From an uncultured cyanobacterium (lineage in GTDB: Bacteria; Cyanobacteriota; Cyanobacteriia; Cyanobacteriales; Nostocaceae), in the NCBI GenBank assembly GCA_903848645.1, contig CAINGU010000083.1, positions 62,001 to 126,000 of the forward strand: a stretch of 64,000 nt of DNA, read 5' to 3'. The translations under genes were made by a program, and so were the position numbers. Positions 43,121 through 62,725 of the stretch are shown here, in pieces (the stretch's first letter is position 1; every line of letters starts with the position of its first letter). The notes below the pieces were generated by a model. It did not search any database and had not been told where the DNA came from. It saw only the letters and a list, made by a program, of their open reading frames with translations.

Positions 43121-43861
43121 ATGCCTGATCAGCAGGTGTGGCGACTTATTCCAATTTTAGCAGCTTCTGGTCATGTGCAGATGGCTGTTGACCGCTGGTT
43201 ATTAGCACAGCATGAGTCGGGAAAACATCCAGCAACTTTACGTTTTTATACTTGGTCGCCCCCGGCAATTTCCCTCGGTTATCATCAACGTCAATATCCC
43301 GAATTTTGGGAAAATTTAACTTGGAAAGGTGAAAAATTGGATTTAGTCCGCCGTCCTACTGGGGGGAGGGCGGTTTTACACCAAGGTGATTTAACTTACG
43401 CTGTGGTGACATCTGGACTGGGGAGAAATCGTTTAGATGTGTATGCAAAGATTTGTGAGTTTTTGATTCAAGGATGGCGATCGCTTGGTGTCGAGTTGTA
43501 CTATGGCCAGGCTGGACGCGGTTATATTCACAATCCTAATTGTTTTGGCACGGCCACAGGTGCAGATTTAGTTTTAGTAGATGGTTCTAAACTGATTGGT
43601 AGCGCCCAATTGCGGAAAGGTGACGCGGTTCTCCAACATGGTTCTATGCGGTTAAATCCAGATGCAGATTTGTTTGCAAAAGTATTTAATCAGGAGTCTT
43701 TTACTTCTGTACAGTTTTCCCAAAGTCTTAATCAAGAAATCATAATTAATGCTTTAATAGCCGCAGCTTGTGATTGTTTTGCTATGGAAATAGAGGTAAT
43801 ACCTCTGTCTGAAGATGAGTGGGCTGAAATATCTAATAATTCAAAATTCAACAATAAATAA
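43121..43861 (+). CDS. Lipoate-protein ligase A family protein
   Basis: 246 residues with the biotin/lipoate ligase (BPL_LplA_LipB) fold. DLVRRPTGGRAVLHQGDLTY is the lipoate-binding RRxxGGG(A/R)xxH motif, and KLIGSAQ holds the catalytic lysine. It would activate or attach lipoate (or octanoate) to the E2 subunits of dehydrogenases or GcvH. The start at 43121 follows the YbjN-like gene closely. Confidence 0.9.
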   Translation: MPDQQVWRLIPILAASGHVQMAVDRWLLAQHESGKHPATLRFYTWSPPAISLGYHQRQYPEFWENLTWKGEKLDLVRRPTGGRAVLHQGDLTYAVVTSGLGRNRLDVYAKICEFLIQGWRSLGVELYYGQAGRGYIHNPNCFGTATGADLVLVDGSKLIGSAQLRKGDAVLQHGSMRLNPDADLFAKVFNQESFTSVQFSQSLNQEIIINALIAAACDCFAMEIEVIPLSEDEWAEISNNSKFNNK

Positions 43862-46541: not shown

Positions 46542-47309
46542 CTATTCTGTAGGTATTTCTGCCACATTTTTTAGTTTTTGGTAAGTCGCATTCGCAAAAT
46601 TTGTAATCTTATTTTCTCCAGATTTAGTTGATTTGTGAAGATTTTCCCAAGTTAAAATTTTACCTGAATTCTGCCAGTATTCAATTGCTTTTAATGCAGC
46701 TTTGATTTGATTGGTATTTGCTCCAACTTTACTCAAAGCATTCATCACTTGTTCATCTGTTGCTGTAAGTAAATTCAATTTTGATGGAGGTGGTGGTGGT
46801 ATCAGTTTTTCAAGAACGGATAAAATATGTTCTAGTTTATTTTCAATTGACTTGAATCTTTGTTCAGAATCCACTGTTTCTGTATTTGCAGGAGGATTAG
46901 CAATGATCTGGTTTATTTTGGCATAAATTTGTTTATTTTGATCAAGTAATTTACCAATTTCAGTTTCTCTATTGGGTGGTTTAAATTGGTTATCGGGAGT
47001 ATCAACTTTTTGAATAAATGCAACTTGATTTAACACTGCATCTTCTTTTTCAGCAGGGATAATAAAGGCATTAACAATTTCTCCCCTATTAGGATTTTTT
47101 TCTCTAGCTCTAACAGCAGCATAATATTCAAAATGTCCATCAATTACTTCATATTTTTCAAAACCAATTTTTTTGAGTACCAATGGTTTTAATATCCCTC
47201 CAGATTCTAGTATTGAATCAGCAAGAATATCTAAATCAGCTTCTTCAAAATTAGAACGAGGAACGCTTGAAGTTACACCTTCAATTTCTACAATTAAAAA
47301 TTTAGTCAT
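46542..47309 (-). CDS. ParB-like nuclease domain protein, atypical
   Basis: 255 residues. The N-terminal ~80 residues follow the ParB/Srx layout: DLDILADSILESGGILKPLVLKK, then VIDGHFEYYAAVRAREKNP. The usual arginine-rich GERRxRA box is replaced by DGHFEYYAA, so CTP handling may differ. A middle part with an Asn/Pro-rich linker and coiled coil (RFKSIENKLEHILSVLEKL) is followed by PPPPP and a C-terminal helical domain (TATDEQVMNALSKVG, AALKAIEYWQNSG). It starts 2 bases after the nuclease-ParA stop, with a GGAG ribosome-binding site, so the two are one operon. Confidence 0.75.
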   Translation of the reverse strand: MTKFLIVEIEGVTSSVPRSNFEEADLDILADSILESGGILKPLVLKKIGFEKYEVIDGHFEYYAAVRAREKNPNRGEIVNAFIIPAEKEDAVLNQVAFIQKVDTPDNQFKPPNRETEIGKLLDQNKQIYAKINQIIANPPANTETVDSEQRFKSIENKLEHILSVLEKLIPPPPPSKLNLLTATDEQVMNALSKVGANTNQIKAALKAIEYWQNSGKILTWENLHKSTKSGENKITNFANATYQKLKNVAEIPTE

Positions 47310-47311
47310 GA

Positions 47312-48685
47312 TTATATCTCCATTTTTCTAACTACTTCTAAAGCTAAAGACTCAAATTCAAAAGCTGATACACTGGCCGATGATTCATATTTAGCAAAAT
47401 CAAAAATTGATTTGGGATCTGGTATTTCTAGATTTCCTACAATTAAATTTTTGTTAATACAATGTGACAATGCTGCTCTTTCTGTAATCATGTTATCCAT
47501 TAATGGTAGTTCATAGCGTTCTGGAATTAAATCTCTATGACGTGGGAATGAATGTTTTAGATATTGATTATTACTAGAGATTTTTGATGGCAGAACACCC
47601 ATAATCTGAATAGGTGGTTTTCCCATATTTTCCCTATTTTCATTAATTTCTCTTTTGATGAAGTTTTTCACACTTAACAAACCTTGGTTAGAAAATGGCT
47701 TCAAATCTGAAGGAATAATTAGGTAATCAGCAGCAGTCAAAGAAGCTGTAGCATATAAATCTAATGAAGGAGGAGTATCAATTATAGTAATATCATAACT
47801 ATCCTGAACCAATGCTAATTTTTTAGCTAGTCTAGTTATGCTTGCAGAAGATACAGCTAAACGTGGTTGACGTTCAATTAAAGTAATGTGGGAAGGAATA
47901 ACATCTATTTCTGTTGAATTAAACCCATTTGATTTACGAACAATATCAGGTATAGAAAATGATTTTTCTTCACCTGCAATTAGCAAATGAAAAACATTGC
48001 GATCTTTTAAATCATCATCATCCTCAAATTCAAATTTTATTAATCCTGTAGCAAAGGTGGTATTAGCTTGAGCATCAATATCAATCAAGAGAACCTTTTT
48101 CCCTTGATTACTCAAGGCTGCCGCTAAGTTAACAGCAACAGTTGTTTTACCAACTCCACCCTTATGATGATAAATTGCAATTGTCTTCATAGAATTCTCC
48201 CTATTCCTTTCTAAATCCATTAGTTGAACTGATAACTTTTCCTTAACCTGCCTATTTTTCAAACTCTCCCTACCAATTAACCCCCCAATTTCCTCTATCT
48301 TTGTTTCAACATCATTACCATCACATTGAAAAACCAACTTAACATCATCTCGTAACTTTTGATAAATTCTGATTTCTTTACCATTAGTTAATAAACCATA
48401 GCGCACATTCAAACTCGTTAAATAATGCCTAAGTCTGAGAACGTGATGATTTAAATTTTGCTTGGGACTTTTTGCCTCCATTACTACACTCATGGGTGAG
48501 TCAGTATCCAACACAAAGGGAATAGACTGTGCTGCAAATGCTAAAAAATCCAAGCGAATGCTACCCATAGCAACTTCTTGATGCCACGTATCCTGGGTAT
48601 ACCCTAGCCGTGGTAGCAAATATTGAACTATAAGTTTGCTCTCAACTTCACTTTCATTACGGCACAATTCCGGGTTAAAAAGCAA
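47312..48685 (-). CDS. HsdR_N-like nuclease domain fused to ParA ATPase
   Basis: 457 residues. Residues about 1-130 look like the N-terminal nuclease domain of type I restriction enzymes (HsdR_N, PD-(D/E)xK fold): E15, D46 in IRLDFLAFA, E70-x-K72 in VVMEAKSPKQ, and GLLTNGKEIRIYQ. A linker follows (130-165). A ParA/MinD ATPase fills about 167-457 with deviant Walker A KGGVGKT (175-181), Walker A' IDIDAQAN at 201-208, and switch segment IIDTPPSLDLY. M166 has its own GGGAG ribosome-binding site, so a free ParA could also be made. Operon with the ParB-like gene; divergent from a second ParA. The fusion is intact and not recognised as a described family. Confidence 0.85.
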   Translation of the reverse strand: MLFNPELCRNESEVESKLIVQYLLPRLGYTQDTWHQEVAMGSIRLDFLAFAAQSIPFVLDTDSPMSVVMEAKSPKQNLNHHVLRLRHYLTSLNVRYGLLTNGKEIRIYQKLRDDVKLVFQCDGNDVETKIEEIGGLIGRESLKNRQVKEKLSVQLMDLERNRENSMKTIAIYHHKGGVGKTTVAVNLAAALSNQGKKVLLIDIDAQANTTFATGLIKFEFEDDDDLKDRNVFHLLIAGEEKSFSIPDIVRKSNGFNSTEIDVIPSHITLIERQPRLAVSSASITRLAKKLALVQDSYDITIIDTPPSLDLYATASLTAADYLIIPSDLKPFSNQGLLSVKNFIKREINENRENMGKPPIQIMGVLPSKISSNNQYLKHSFPRHRDLIPERYELPLMDNMITERAALSHCINKNLIVGNLEIPDPKSIFDFAKYESSASVSAFEFESLALEVVRKMEI

Positions 48686-49053
48686 TGTTTTTTACCTCTC
48701 ATCAAGTAGTACGCATCTATGAAAATATTTCACTTGCATAATTATGACATAGTAATAAGTATGAACGTTATTAGAATTAATCAATACATATCATTTATGC
48801 AAGCAAGATATATATAGTAAATATACTTATAAAAGCCAGCAGAATATGATCGCAGTATTTTTGGATTCAGCCAATTTCAATAGGTTTATGCTTGTTGTTG
48901 GCAATTGATTTTGTGGCTTTTGTCCATTGGTGCAATACTCTATAAGTAAAAAAACTTTTCGACATCCTCCAAAAGGCTAAATTAATCAAAGTTAAAATCT
49001 ATTAGATAATATGTACGCTACCTCAATGGAAAAGCGTCAGTAGGGGAATTAAA
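48686..49053. promoter_or_regulatory. Divergent control region with spaced inverted repeat
   Basis: 368 AT-rich bases between the divergent nuclease-ParA and ParA genes. CTTGCATAA at 48733-48741 and TTATGCAAG at 48795-48803 form an exact 9-bp inverted repeat spaced 53 bases apart. It lies near the nuclease-ParA start. It could be an operator or a centromere-like (parS) site for the ParB-like protein. Nothing else was recognised. Confidence 0.5.
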
Positions 49054-49938
49054 ATGGGATATGTAATTGCAACTGCAAACATGAAAGGTGGAGTCGGTAA
49101 AACCACCCTCACCGTCAATATAGCCACTTGTTTAGCCAAAAATCACGGTAAAAAGGTACTTGTTTTAGATTTAGATAGTCAAATTAGTGCCACACTGAGT
49201 TTAATGTCACCAGTAGACTTTGCCAAACGTCGCAAACAACGAAAGACATTTAGATATTTGCTAGATCAAATTATCAACCCTGAACCAGAGGCAAAACTGA
49301 CCATTCATGACATCATTCAATCTCAAGTTTGTAATCTGCCTGGATTAGATATATTACCAGGAGATATTGACTTATATGATGAATTTGTGGTTTCCGAAAT
49401 GCTGCATAATCAATCAATGGCATTAGGAGAACAGGATTTTGAAACCATCTGGAACCGCTTTGAAAGAGTCTTAATTAGAGATATTTTAAAACCCGTGCGA
49501 GATGAATATGATTTTATTCTTTTAGATTGCGCTCCTGGTTATAATCTCATGACTCGCAGTGCTTTAGCTACTAGTGATTTCTACATTCTTCCAGCTAGAC
49601 CAGAACCGTTGTCTGTAGTCGGAATTCAACTTTTAGAAAGACGCATTGCTCAATTAAAAGACAGTCACGAACACGAAGCCAAAATAGATATTAAAATGTT
49701 GGGAATCGTCTTTAGTATGTCCAGTGCAAATCTCCTGAATGGCAGATATTATAAACAGGTAATGCACCGAGTTGTTGAAGATTTTGGAGTAGATAAAATC
49801 TGTAAAGCCCAAATACCAGTTGATGTTAATGTTGCCAAAGCTGTTGATAGTTTTATGCCAGTTTCTTTACTAAGTCCGAATACAGCCGGTTCTAAAGCCT
49901 TTATGCAATTAACTCAGGAATTATTGCAGAAGTTGTAA
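49054..49938 (+). CDS. ParA family ATPase
   Basis: 294 residues. NMKGGVGKTTLTVNIATCLA is the deviant Walker A with its signature lysine; LDLDSQISATLSL follows as Walker A', and LLDCAPGYNLMTRSALATSD is the Walker B/switch region. It has no HTH extension, so it is a short (type Ib-like) ParA. Divergent from the nuclease-ParA/ParB-like operon, with which it likely functions. Partition of a DNA element or subcellular positioning are the usual ParA jobs. Confidence 0.9.
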   Translation: MGYVIATANMKGGVGKTTLTVNIATCLAKNHGKKVLVLDLDSQISATLSLMSPVDFAKRRKQRKTFRYLLDQIINPEPEAKLTIHDIIQSQVCNLPGLDILPGDIDLYDEFVVSEMLHNQSMALGEQDFETIWNRFERVLIRDILKPVRDEYDFILLDCAPGYNLMTRSALATSDFYILPARPEPLSVVGIQLLERRIAQLKDSHEHEAKIDIKMLGIVFSMSSANLLNGRYYKQVMHRVVEDFGVDKICKAQIPVDVNVAKAVDSFMPVSLLSPNTAGSKAFMQLTQELLQKL

Positions 49939-50127: not shown

Positions 50128-51552
50128 CTATTCCGCTAACTTTTTAATATCACCATAGACACGGTAAAAGCCTCCATTAGCAGACTCTCGCACTTCTTGA
50201 ACCCAATAACGCTGTCCTTCTTCCCGAATATCTCTGGGAAACTGCACTTTCCAGTCAGAGTGATAATTAGGAGAAACAACCCGAATTCTTAATTTACTCC
50301 CCTGACGGAAACATTCCACAATCACACCCGCACTTGTATCTGTGGTAGTCTCCAAAACAGTAGAAGGTACAGCCCCCTCTCCTTTTGGTGCTTTAATAAT
50401 AGTAGCTTCGGGAATAGTTCCCATTTGAGCCGCACTAATTGCTGCTGCACTGGCATCAATACAAGCTAAAGAACCATCAGTTGTCACTATATATATGCGG
50501 TTATCAAAAAATTGCATAGATAAAGCCGAACCGCAACCCGTTCCTAGCTTCCATAACCGTTCTCCTCTTTGATTAAAACAGTAAATTGAAGAACTATTAT
50601 CACCCGCAAAAACATATTTACCATCTAAAGCTGTAGCACAGGAGTACACAGCAGCATCACATTTATAAACTGCACCGGGTTCACCTTTTTTACTAAAGGA
50701 ATAAACCTTTTGATCGCTAGTACCAGCATAAACTACAGATGCTTCTTGCCAACCAAATAAGACAGAACCAGCAGTTTTTTGATGCCAAAGCATTCTTCCT
50801 TCTTTGTGATCATACATGGTTACACCTGCGCTATGTCCGTGATAAACACCATTCTGATCACAACGAACCATCCAACCAGCAGAACCTTGACTCAAACGTG
50901 TCCATTGCAATTCATCATCATGCCCAATCGTAGTTAGACCACCTTTAGCGTCAGATACTCCCAGCAAACCATCATGTATATCTAACCAGAAAATATCCAC
51001 ATTTTCATCAATTTGGTAAGCGACTCGTGGTAACTTCCCTGTTAAGTCGTAGACATTCCCATCATCACAACCCGCATAAATCCAGATATCATCAGCCACT
51101 AAACATTTGACCCCTTCAGAAAGTTTAAATTGATTGATAACCTTCCCTTCATTATTCAGTGCAAATACTTGTCCAGCTTGGTTTCCTAGCCAACAACGTT
51201 CAGCGTCTATAAAAATCCCAAAAGCCGCAGAATTGGAGTTAAATTTCCAAATAATTGGCGATTGTTTTGCTGTCGAAGTAGTGCTATTAACTTGACGACG
51301 GGTAATGGAGCGTTTTTGTCGCACTCCCATCACCGCTTGTTCATAGCCTTTTTTTAGCTTTTCGTTAATTTTTTTCTGCGCTTCTGCTTGTGCTTTTTCT
51401 GGAGTGGGGTAAGTTTTGCTTTGGGTTTGTCCTGTATCCCCAATCCGACCATAACGGATAGTTAATTCAGTATTATTAATAACAACCTCATAAAATTTAT
51501 GAGAGCCGCTATCACCTTGGGAAAGTTCTAAATAGGTCTTTTCTTCAGCCAT
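50128..51552 (-). CDS. WGR domain protein with C-terminal beta-propeller
   Basis: 474 residues. Residues about 1-75 form a WGR domain (YEVVINNTELTIRYGRIGDTGQTQSK), with the motif here YGR. A basic linker (residues 76-95) follows. From about 95 to 385 is a propeller of about six blades with repeated FAG/YAG-type strands (for example WIYAGCDDGNVYDL, VYAGTSDQKVYSFSKKGE, YVFAGDNSSSIYCF). The C-terminal ~75 residues form a separate small domain. WGR is known from PARP and MolR regulators, where it binds nucleic acid or nucleotide-modified proteins. Here the combination suggests a sensor or scaffold; function unknown. Confidence 0.85.
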   Translation of the reverse strand: MAEEKTYLELSQGDSGSHKFYEVVINNTELTIRYGRIGDTGQTQSKTYPTPEKAQAEAQKKINEKLKKGYEQAVMGVRQKRSITRRQVNSTTSTAKQSPIIWKFNSNSAAFGIFIDAERCWLGNQAGQVFALNNEGKVINQFKLSEGVKCLVADDIWIYAGCDDGNVYDLTGKLPRVAYQIDENVDIFWLDIHDGLLGVSDAKGGLTTIGHDDELQWTRLSQGSAGWMVRCDQNGVYHGHSAGVTMYDHKEGRMLWHQKTAGSVLFGWQEASVVYAGTSDQKVYSFSKKGEPGAVYKCDAAVYSCATALDGKYVFAGDNSSSIYCFNQRGERLWKLGTGCGSALSMQFFDNRIYIVTTDGSLACIDASAAAISAAQMGTIPEATIIKAPKGEGAVPSTVLETTTDTSAGVIVECFRQGSKLRIRVVSPNYHSDWKVQFPRDIREEGQRYWVQEVRESANGGFYRVYGDIKKLAE

Positions 51553-61423: not shown

Positions 61424-62725
61424 TTAAATATTAATATTTTTAATTTCTTCCCAAGCATCATTAATTTTATCACGATTACGAACTATCTTTTCGGGTGTTG
61501 TATCTCTTCTAACTGCTTGCAACATAGTCAGACTTTCCTTAGCAAAGAATAACCATTGAGGCAAATTAATAGCTAAAGGATTACCAGCGTATGTAAAAAT
61601 TTTTAGCGCATTGCCACTAGCTGATATTGCATGAGCTAAAAACAACATTTTATGAAGTTTTAGATTAGATTGAATTTGATACATTTCTCTATTTACAATA
61701 GAAGTATGCAAGGAGTATTGAAGTTGTTCTGCACTATCCAAACATGAAAGATAGTGATAAGCTCTGACAATTATTTCTATAACAGCTACAGGAACTGACA
61801 TTGTAATAAAGTGTCTTAGATCATAACCATTTAAATACATCCATCTAGATATATCTGCTATGGTTTTTGTATCCGATCCATAAAAACCAAATTGTATAAG
61901 TTGGAGAAATGCCCATCCAGGAATAGGAACTCCCATTTTAGTAGACATATCAGATATAATATGACCCAACCAAATCAAAGGAGCAAAGGCTTTATCTTCC
62001 AATGACATATCAAATGTTTTCAAAATATGAAGATTCCCATTGATGTCGAAAGCAGTCATATTGCCATTGATAATGTCTAGCGTTCCAAATATCAGACCAA
62101 ATAGCGGATCATGGCCAAGACTTAATAACCTATGAGTTTTGGGATTAAATCCTTTAATATTCGGATTAATACTTTGGTCATAAGAAACTTTACAAGTATC
62201 TTCACACCACTTTAAAAATGGATTTAATTCTCCTTCTTGATCAATACCTAAAGTTTTTAAGCATTGTGTAAAATTACTTCCTTCTTGTTTATATTTTCCT
62301 AGATAGTTGATATCTTTGGGAATTTTGACCACTAAAAAATCAAGAATAGTAGCAACTAAACCTGATATACCAACTATTGCATAATCTAAGTTAGATAATG
62401 GAGGCAAAAATTCTGGGTTTCTGAAAACCTCTTCTTTGACCCTATCCTCAATAATCAGAAAGTTGTTATTTAAGAAAATTTCATCTTCCCAAATTAGTTG
62501 CCTTTGTGATTTAGATGGTTGTAAATTAGTATCTAAGATATTCCTGATAATATCTTCTGAAACTCCAATATCTTTAGCTAGACTAATTACATCATTTTGT
62601 AATTGTGTCAATTTTTCTGTTTCCTGTTTCTGAGTCTGATTAATTGTGGCAAAAGAAAAATGAATATCTCTAACTCTTTGAGACATTTCCAAAAACTCAT
62701 TATCCCAATTCAATATCCTAGACAT
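61424..62725 (-). CDS. Putative membrane metal-hydrolase-like protein (weak YdjM/DUF457 resemblance)
   Basis: 433 residues. The N-terminal ~65 residues are predicted helical and coiled-coil-like. Hydrophobic segments occur around 114-135 and in the C-terminal half. The motifs H198-R, LGH205D206PLFG and GH255-IISD259 with MGVPIPG recall the HR..H...D and LSHxxxDxxTPxGVP pattern of YdjM/DUF457-type membrane hydrolases. That resemblance is by eye only and should be treated as a hypothesis. It starts 14 bases after the previous gene's end, so the pair is one operon. Defence or toxin function is speculation. Confidence 0.5.
   Translation of the reverse strand: MSRILNWDNEFLEMSQRVRDIHFSFATINQTQKQETEKLTQLQNDVISLAKDIGVSEDIIRNILDTNLQPSKSQRQLIWEDEIFLNNNFLIIEDRVKEEVFRNPEFLPPLSNLDYAIVGISGLVATILDFLVVKIPKDINYLGKYKQEGSNFTQCLKTLGIDQEGELNPFLKWCEDTCKVSYDQSINPNIKGFNPKTHRLLSLGHDPLFGLIFGTLDIINGNMTAFDINGNLHILKTFDMSLEDKAFAPLIWLGHIISDMSTKMGVPIPGWAFLQLIQFGFYGSDTKTIADISRWMYLNGYDLRHFITMSVPVAVIEIIVRAYHYLSCLDSAEQLQYSLHTSIVNREMYQIQSNLKLHKMLFLAHAISASGNALKIFTYAGNPLAINLPQWLFFAKESLTMLQAVRRDTTPEKIVRNRDKINDAWEEIKNINI

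Follow-up and report, generated by a model that had tools for sequence, protein, structure and literature searches.

A predicted nuclease–ParA fusion and its ParB-fold partner form a conserved cyanobacterial gene pair that mostly alternates with an FtsK/exonuclease operon in Nostocaceae

We analyzed a 64,000-nucleotide stretch of DNA (hereafter the window; positions 62,001 to 126,000 of contig CAINGU010000083.1) from an uncultured cyanobacterium of the family Nostocaceae and focused on two adjacent genes on its minus strand. The first, at 47312..48685 (–), encodes a predicted restriction-type nuclease domain fused to a ParA ATPase, and the second, at 46542..47309 (–), a partner protein with a ParB-like fold. 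A first-pass annotation, made from the sequence alone, had described the two genes as overlapping and had added a divergent, stand-alone ParA gene as a third component; we found a 2-bp gap between the two genes and, at 49054..49938 (+), a core gene that does not belong to the module.

Results

The Fusion Protein and Its Two Domains

The fusion gene was called at the place noted earlier and, from a TTG start, encodes a protein of 457 amino acids (aa) belonging to the form that we designate class A. The start codon is preceded by GAGAGG, and several relatives share the TTG start with GAGGTA upstream. Residues 1–125 (48311..48685, –) form a predicted PD-(D/E)xK nuclease-like domain of the HsdR_N type with E11, E15, D46, E70, K72, and Y88, and residues 166–455 (47321..48190, –) a ParA/Soj ATPase domain with the deviant Walker A motif KGGVGKTT. 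In profile searches, the open frame matched HSDR_N_2 with 27.1 bits, above the 25-bit cut-off, and the TTG-started protein with 24.3 bits, just under it, over residues 17–112; the nuclease homology proposed earlier was thus found, with a score straddling the cut-off. Residues 166–349 matched AAA_31 with an E value of 3.5e-50, and the ParA domain is complete, in agreement with the earlier description of an intact frame joining the two domains. The motif KGGVGKTT was kept in all 25 aligned fusions.

The four residues proposed earlier as the active site, E15, D46, E70, and K72, were highly conserved. Among 122 distinct ParA-fused domains (a count omitting the plasmid and viral loci L154–L187), D46, E70, K72, and Y88 were invariant, E11 was present in 121, and E15 in 118. 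Such invariance indicates that the match of the N-terminal domain is not due to chance; it is the pattern expected of an active enzyme and suggests strong constraint on a predicted nuclease. Both the cutting of DNA and its target are inferred.

An AlphaFold model of the fusion, built on 25 sequences, had a predicted local distance difference test (pLDDT) score of 80.8 and a predicted template modeling (pTM) score of 0.62. Its N-terminal domain consists of a helix (residues 11–26), three strands (34–40, 43–50, and 66–71), a second helix (79–92), and two further strands (96–100 and 104–111), an order that fits the core topology of PD-(D/E)xK nucleases. The model places E15 in the helix and D46 in strand 2, with E70 in strand 3 and K72 directly beyond it. 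A helical linker joins this domain to the ParA domain, which is closest in fold to Soj. ParA/MinD-type ATPases occupied the 50 Foldseek matches listed, none of which was to a nuclease only; the Protein Data Bank matches included BpuSI and an HsdR subunit, both nonsignificant (E values 0.04 and 0.16). PADLOC 2.0.0 gave only partial ParA-, Cas4-, or mad2-type matches to the fusion (mad2 E value 0.007) and had no system model covering the whole protein for the pair; matches in NCBIfam and PHROGs were likewise partial.

A Noncanonical ParB-Fold Partner

The partner (255 aa) consists of an N-terminal domain with the ParB/Srx fold, a helical middle, and an exchangeable C-terminal tail. Residues 14–69 (47103..47270, –) matched ParB_N with 31.7 bits, above the cut-off, and have GHFE where GxxR is expected, confirming the altered ParB box seen in the first-pass annotation. 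An AlphaFold model built on 12 sequences (pLDDT 77.2, pTM 0.38) matched the folds of ParB, Noc, PadC, and sulfiredoxin. The tail (46542..46784, –) gave a weak match of the helix-hairpin-helix type (E value 0.085), and that of the nearest relative, L064, matched Rho_N instead (23.7 bits, just under the cut-off of 24.9); across the relatives, tails matched Rho_N/SAP or helix-hairpin-helix (HHH_3) models, in some cases below the cut-off.

We searched the partners for the ParB motifs GxxR (box II) and LG-R/K-GL as they are given in PMC12704722. A regular expression for the GxxR region matched 65 of 72 partners (one match, L152, being visibly misplaced), and none of the 65 had the arginine, the position being occupied by E in 32, W in 25, and other residues in 8. 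The ParA-binding motif LG-R/K-GL was absent from the first 60 residues of all 72 partners. The HTH_ParB helix-turn-helix (HTH) domain did not appear among the library matches of the partners. The genome of the window gave four HTH_ParB matches, all to other ParBs encoded elsewhere and none to the window's partner. Judged by its sequence, the partner is a noncanonical ParB and, since it lacks the GxxR arginine, the ParA-binding motif, and the HTH, the pair is no standard ParABS locus.

At two loci (L150:7422-9866 and L196:5439-7665), two partner genes with differing N-terminal domains or tails are located near each other downstream of one fusion, as if several recognition subunits were usable.

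A Two-Gene Unit Conserved across Cyanobacteria

The conserved unit is the two-gene pair, fusion then partner, found across Cyanobacteria in varied neighborhoods. In the host family, the N-terminal domain matched 127 of 217 genomes and the partner 129 at an E value of 1e-3, the two sets not being identical. Class A fusions are ~460 aa long; a second form, class B, is ~500 aa long with an N-terminal domain 27–33% identical to that of the window. We fetched 40 loci, picked by choice from the family. The partner adjoined the fusion in these and in the window (41/41; the fusion of L101 is split), with surroundings that differed, and 24 of the 40 were on contigs longer than 5 Mb. In a phylum-wide search, the domain profile found matches in 65 of 386 genomes, spread over 37 of 142 genera; those in G055 and G258 were weak and in other proteins. 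Twenty of the 44 matching loci outside the family were fetched, and the partner adjoined the fusion in 17, the exceptions being L138, L142 (a split fusion), and L143 (a 1,265-aa protein of G258 without Walker A). Finally, a class B pattern run over 84,980 species genomes retrieved 36 loci, of which 34 have cyanobacterial titles; the partner was adjacent in 30, and of the other six, four were at contig ends and two were noncyanobacterial. The three sets overlap (L188, for example, is L141). No integrase or transposase was found in the two-gene unit.

The stand-alone ParA (294 aa) was considered as a module component, and a three-gene divergent operon as the unit, and rejected: the gene was present in 213 of 217 family genomes (E value 1e-60 or better) and in all 56 genera, with or without the module. 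We regard it as a core gene, nearly universal in the family, and as the landmark of a slot where the pair often resides; it was divergent from the fusion and within 600 bp of it in 21 of the 41 loci. The region between the two genes (48686..49053) contains the GAGAGG before the TTG start and no iteron array. A search for such arrays in the upstream sequences of 40 fusions (up to 350 bp each) was likewise negative; short repeats occurred in some (e.g., L088 and L102), and a single degenerate site would escape the search.

Exchange of the ParA–Partner Core and the Tail

In 325 pairwise comparisons of 26 class A fusions, identity averaged 83% in the nuclease domain, 61–66% in ParA, and 53% in the N-terminal domain of the partner. 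The identities of ParA and the partner domain covaried (rho 0.87–0.88), and those of the nuclease covaried little with either (0.06–0.17). We compared the same parts with the core ParA gene at 18 loci (153 pairs): rho was 0.73 for the nuclease, 0.24 for ParA, and 0.19 for the partner domain. As locus pairs are not independent, these correlations are descriptive. At the nucleotide level, nine pairs picked by choice were profiled, and several of them showed a drop in identity where one domain borders on the next. Between L065 and L066, it was 98% in the nuclease and 62–69% in ParA; between L071 and L074, it was 92% in the nuclease, 69–74% in ParA, 69% in the partner domain, 95% in the tail, and 90% downstream. 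Others, such as L067/L068 and L088/L097, had no such break in ParA. The tails appear to move separately: the window and L064 have partner N-terminal domains that are 95% identical and tails that are unrelated, and among 104 partner pairs with 70% or more identity in the N-terminal domain, the tails failed to align (E value 1e-3) in 50.

These sequence comparisons show a nuclease that goes with the host lineage, a ParA and a partner N-terminal domain that change jointly, and a tail that is swapped on its own. Exchange of the ParA–partner core and the tail around a nuclease that tracks the host lineage suggests that recognition, and not cutting, is under diversifying pressure.

In L072, a second module-type ParA without a nuclease domain (L072:11565-12443) is located directly upstream of the fusion and may be the leftover of a cassette exchange.

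Alternation with an FtsK/Exonuclease Operon

In genomes without the pair, we found an alternative operon of three genes, which we call c17, c9, and c27. The c17 protein (~280 aa) has no assigned family and only a weak HepT-like match; c9 (~680 aa) is an AAA_16/KAP ATPase; and c27 (~870 aa) combines an RNase D-like exonuclease, a weak Cas4-like match, and an FtsK_alpha plus FtsK motor, with similarity to SspH and scores to the SspH and mad8 models. Representatives, taken from different genomes, are at L091:14032-16737, L088:1967-4003, and L084:1801-2658. No library model was found to cover the operon proteins whole.

The operon often occupies the same place as the pair. In nine pair-less genomes picked by choice, it occupied the slot in front of the core ParA; eight had it intact and the ninth (L229) as fragments. 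Of the 16 species in the genus of the window, 14 have c27 and the other two the pair; at the five loci fetched from this genus, the operon is bracketed by the core ParA and the same left flank (a homologue of window 43121–43861). Among 20 further c27 loci (the display of one, L245, being centered on a fragment), the core ParA was among the displayed genes in eight and not in six loci of genus g37 and six others. The slot beside the core ParA was also seen once outside the family (L250).

The pair and the operon mostly exclude each other in the host family. For the tally, five of the 127 matching genomes were dropped, three with weak matches in other HsdR_N proteins (G051, G074, and G196) and two with fragments (G031 and G032), which left 122 with the pair. 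For the operon, a best E value of 1e-100 or better was required; 104 of the 209 matching genomes reached it (104 of the 217 in the family), and weaker matches, such as those in G206, G209, G212, and G213, were taken as paralogues or remnants. Among the 217 genomes, 102 had the pair only, 84 the operon only, 20 both, and 11 neither (Fisher P = 4e-28). Exclusion persisted when one random species was drawn per genus (2,000 draws; median P = 2e-6, 95th percentile 4e-5), and 15 genera contained both single states. Genus g37 alone was split 43/5/3/2 (pair only, operon only, both, neither; P = 4e-4), and its six fetched operons had no adjacent core ParA.

Several loci retain operon remnants. Beside the pair, c27 was split or eroded in six of the 41 loci (L077, L078, L090, L093, L100, and L102), and in L078, its residues 1–478 are on one side of the pair and 820–895 on the other. 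In G206 and G209, C-terminal c27 remnants remain between the core ParA and the fusion. Four of the 20 genomes with both had only a 492- to 495-aa c27 frame (G059, G060, G064, and G065), and two had apparently eroded copies (G085 and G192). In L064, L068, and L070, a c9-like ATPase next to the pair was considered as an operon relic and not counted, being only 36–41% identical to the operon c9 query. Partner-like genes with no recognized fusion were located beside or within 3 kb of c27 operons in L248 (G326; near c17), G178:C479, and G181:C71, and are possibly relics of lost pairs.

Plasmid, Phage, and Defense Context

Searching 72,556 plasmid records by tblastn with a class A fusion, a class B fusion, and the partner, we found no place covering 80% of the query (two of the three listings comprised the best 5,000 records). 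The nuclease domain alone gave six matches, three with at least 80% coverage and annotated as methylases or an HsdR_N protein. Starting from one plasmid tblastn match, we detected a third, divergent form of the N-terminal domain, class C, with a shorter ParB-like partner on six cyanobacterial plasmid records: three of Nostoc sp. UHCC 0870, pLBA of Leptolyngbya boryana, and one each of Pseudanabaena sp. ABRG5-3 (12.6 kb) and P. galeata. Its domain scored 13–20 bits with our profile in five of the six, with no score reported for L155, and ExK was seen by eye in all six. Within these searches, classes A and B were not detected on plasmids; the more distant class C relatives speak for the ordinary plasmid locus raised earlier. 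On plasmid unnamed10, an annotated ParB and the AAA-family ATPase next to it are only a few genes away from the class C pair, and unnamed9 has a separate AAA-family ATPase tagged as chromosome segregation and a ParM/StbA gene; given these other partition-type genes, partition alone might be redundant there.

Twenty-one phage records matched the nuclease domain (fusion to ParA was not checked in these). A phage origin of the fusion was sought and not found in 25 viral-contig loci (L163–L187), 23 of which had a called domain frame and none of the 23 a ParA; most of these frames are ~340–380 aa long with the domain at the N terminus.

HsdM and HsdS were found neither among six scanned window proteins nor among the families listed in the neighbor scans. 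Literature searches, with bioRxiv and most subscription journals outside their coverage, found no description of a nuclease–ParA fusion, in line with the earlier impression. The pair appears to be new as a system, and its parts belong to known domain families.

Discussion

The pair shares with ParABS a Soj-like ParA ATPase with a deviant Walker A motif and a ParB/Noc-fold partner in one operon, but it has a nuclease-like domain fused to ParA, a partner without GxxR, ParA-binding motif, and HTH, and no parS-like repeat array that we could see. With type I restriction enzymes, it shares the domain family (HSDR_N_2/HSDR_N) and active-site pattern of the HsdR N terminus, but its motor is ParA instead of a superfamily 2 helicase/translocase, and HsdS and HsdM are missing; the motif QxxxY is kept in seven aligned class B sequences and reads RxxxY or KxxxY in eight of class A. 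Fusions of the ParB-CTPase fold to other domains beside a parA homologue have been surveyed, and ParB-DUF3850 is the one described there as consistently encoded with parA (PMC12704722); the terms "helix-hairpin-helix," "HsdR," and "Rho" are absent from the main text of that survey. Similarity to the ATPase-translocase defense modules of the SspFGH and MADS types is found in c27, whose resemblance to SspH and mad8 indicates that the slot can hold a restriction-like machine; the nuclease–ParA pair itself has only the weak partial mad2 match, and the link is the shared slot.

We tentatively propose, with somewhat less than even confidence, that the pair is a nuclease-armed, ParA/ParB-like DNA-surveillance module that clears unwanted DNA and is able to stand in for the translocase–nuclease operon. 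Three features suggest surveillance of DNA: a nuclease domain that is under selection, an ATPase motor that binds DNA, and a recognition part that diversifies. The interchange with the operon, with one system or the other in 206 of the 217 genomes, speaks for a regular duty more than for optional immunity. In the proposed mechanism, the partner would bind DNA through its tail and engage the ParA domain. ATP-bound ParA proteins dimerize on DNA, and in the fusion, this would bring two nuclease domains together and lead to cutting; ATP hydrolysis stimulated by the partner would reset the complex. The targets would be foreign or extrachromosomal replicons and possibly missegregated DNA, and in the host family, the c17-c9-c27 operon may fill the role instead.

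A number of observations weigh against this proposal. Presence of one or the other system in nearly all family genomes looks more like housekeeping than optional defense. Eleven genomes have a partner-like match (E value 1e-8 or better) and no counted fusion (G021, G031, G032, G074, G108, G165, G178–G181, and G214), among them all four of genus g45. A full-length c27 is located beside the pair in four of the 41 loci (L080, L084, L088, and L091). Outside the family, exclusion was not seen (43 genomes with the pair, 17 with the operon, and 2 with both, with c27 counted at 1e-80 and G258/L143 dropped from the 44 matches). Species are not independent, and the exclusion counts rest on chosen thresholds and hand-typed lists. 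Known defense genes were not in excess near the pair: at a PADLOC threshold of 1e-10, at most 7 of 90 close proteins (outside the family) and at most 9 of 90 distant ones (within it) matched. The two scans drew their 90 proteins from selections of 101 and 111, and the samples come from different lineages, so that the control is unmatched in this respect. The defense role suggested by the first-pass annotation is a conceivable one; the PADLOC matches were partial, and these counts give no defense-island signal.

A broader version of the proposal, which we hold more loosely, is that two unrelated machines share one near-universal task in the host family, that of guarding the genome, and have repeatedly taken each other's place. 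With its cassette-exchanged core and DNA-binding tail, the ParA pair would tell self from nonself replicons, the nuclease staying fixed.

Among the alternatives, the most serious, albeit unlikely, is that the pair maintains the polyploid chromosome, clearing or resolving trapped, broken, or surplus copies at division, as the FtsK/exonuclease operon beside the core ParA would do in other species. Near-universal presence of one or the other, the slot beside a near-universal core ParA (in L250 even outside the family), the many loci on contigs longer than 5 Mb, the FtsK-type motor of the operon, and the lack of a local defense-gene excess are all consistent with such a duty. Rapid exchange of the ParA–partner core and tail would, however, be unusual for a maintenance machine, and the 11 family genomes with neither system include six that are at least 99% complete, in addition to the many cyanobacteria outside the family with neither.

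An improbable explanation is that the exclusion reflects antagonism instead of equal function: the pair would be a selfish cassette that inserts into and knocks out the operon, itself a host restriction machine, or the two would be exchanged by gene conversion in a shared slot. The c27 genes split around the pair, as in L078, and the remnants in G206 and G209 are what sabotage would leave behind, but exclusion also holds in genus g37, where the six fetched operons are away from the core ParA; the two-gene unit has no integrase or transposase; and 20 genomes have both systems, with c27 at full length beside the pair in the four loci given above. Least probable of all is an ordinary partition locus whose restriction-fold domain only binds DNA, a reading that draws on the ParA plus ParB-fold operon and the class C plasmids and conflicts with the invariant catalytic residues, the missing ParB motifs and HTH, the lack of a repeat array upstream of the fusions, the four HTH_ParB ParBs elsewhere in the host genome, and the separate ParB and ATPase on unnamed10. 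The related suggestion that this copy is partition machinery of an integrated element is not supported, given the partner's missing motifs and HTH, the lack of a visible iteron array upstream, and the large contigs.

If the pair cuts DNA, as the DNA-surveillance proposal has it, a ParA engine would be aiming a nuclease instead of moving DNA. The mutual exclusion points to a candidate functional equivalent, the FtsK/exonuclease operon, and the combination of a constant effector with swapped recognition parts provides natural chimeras for mapping specificity.

Farther along the window, positions 50128–51552 encode a protein that combines a WGR domain with beta-propeller repeats; a glutaminase gene is next to it, and L064 has this arrangement as well.

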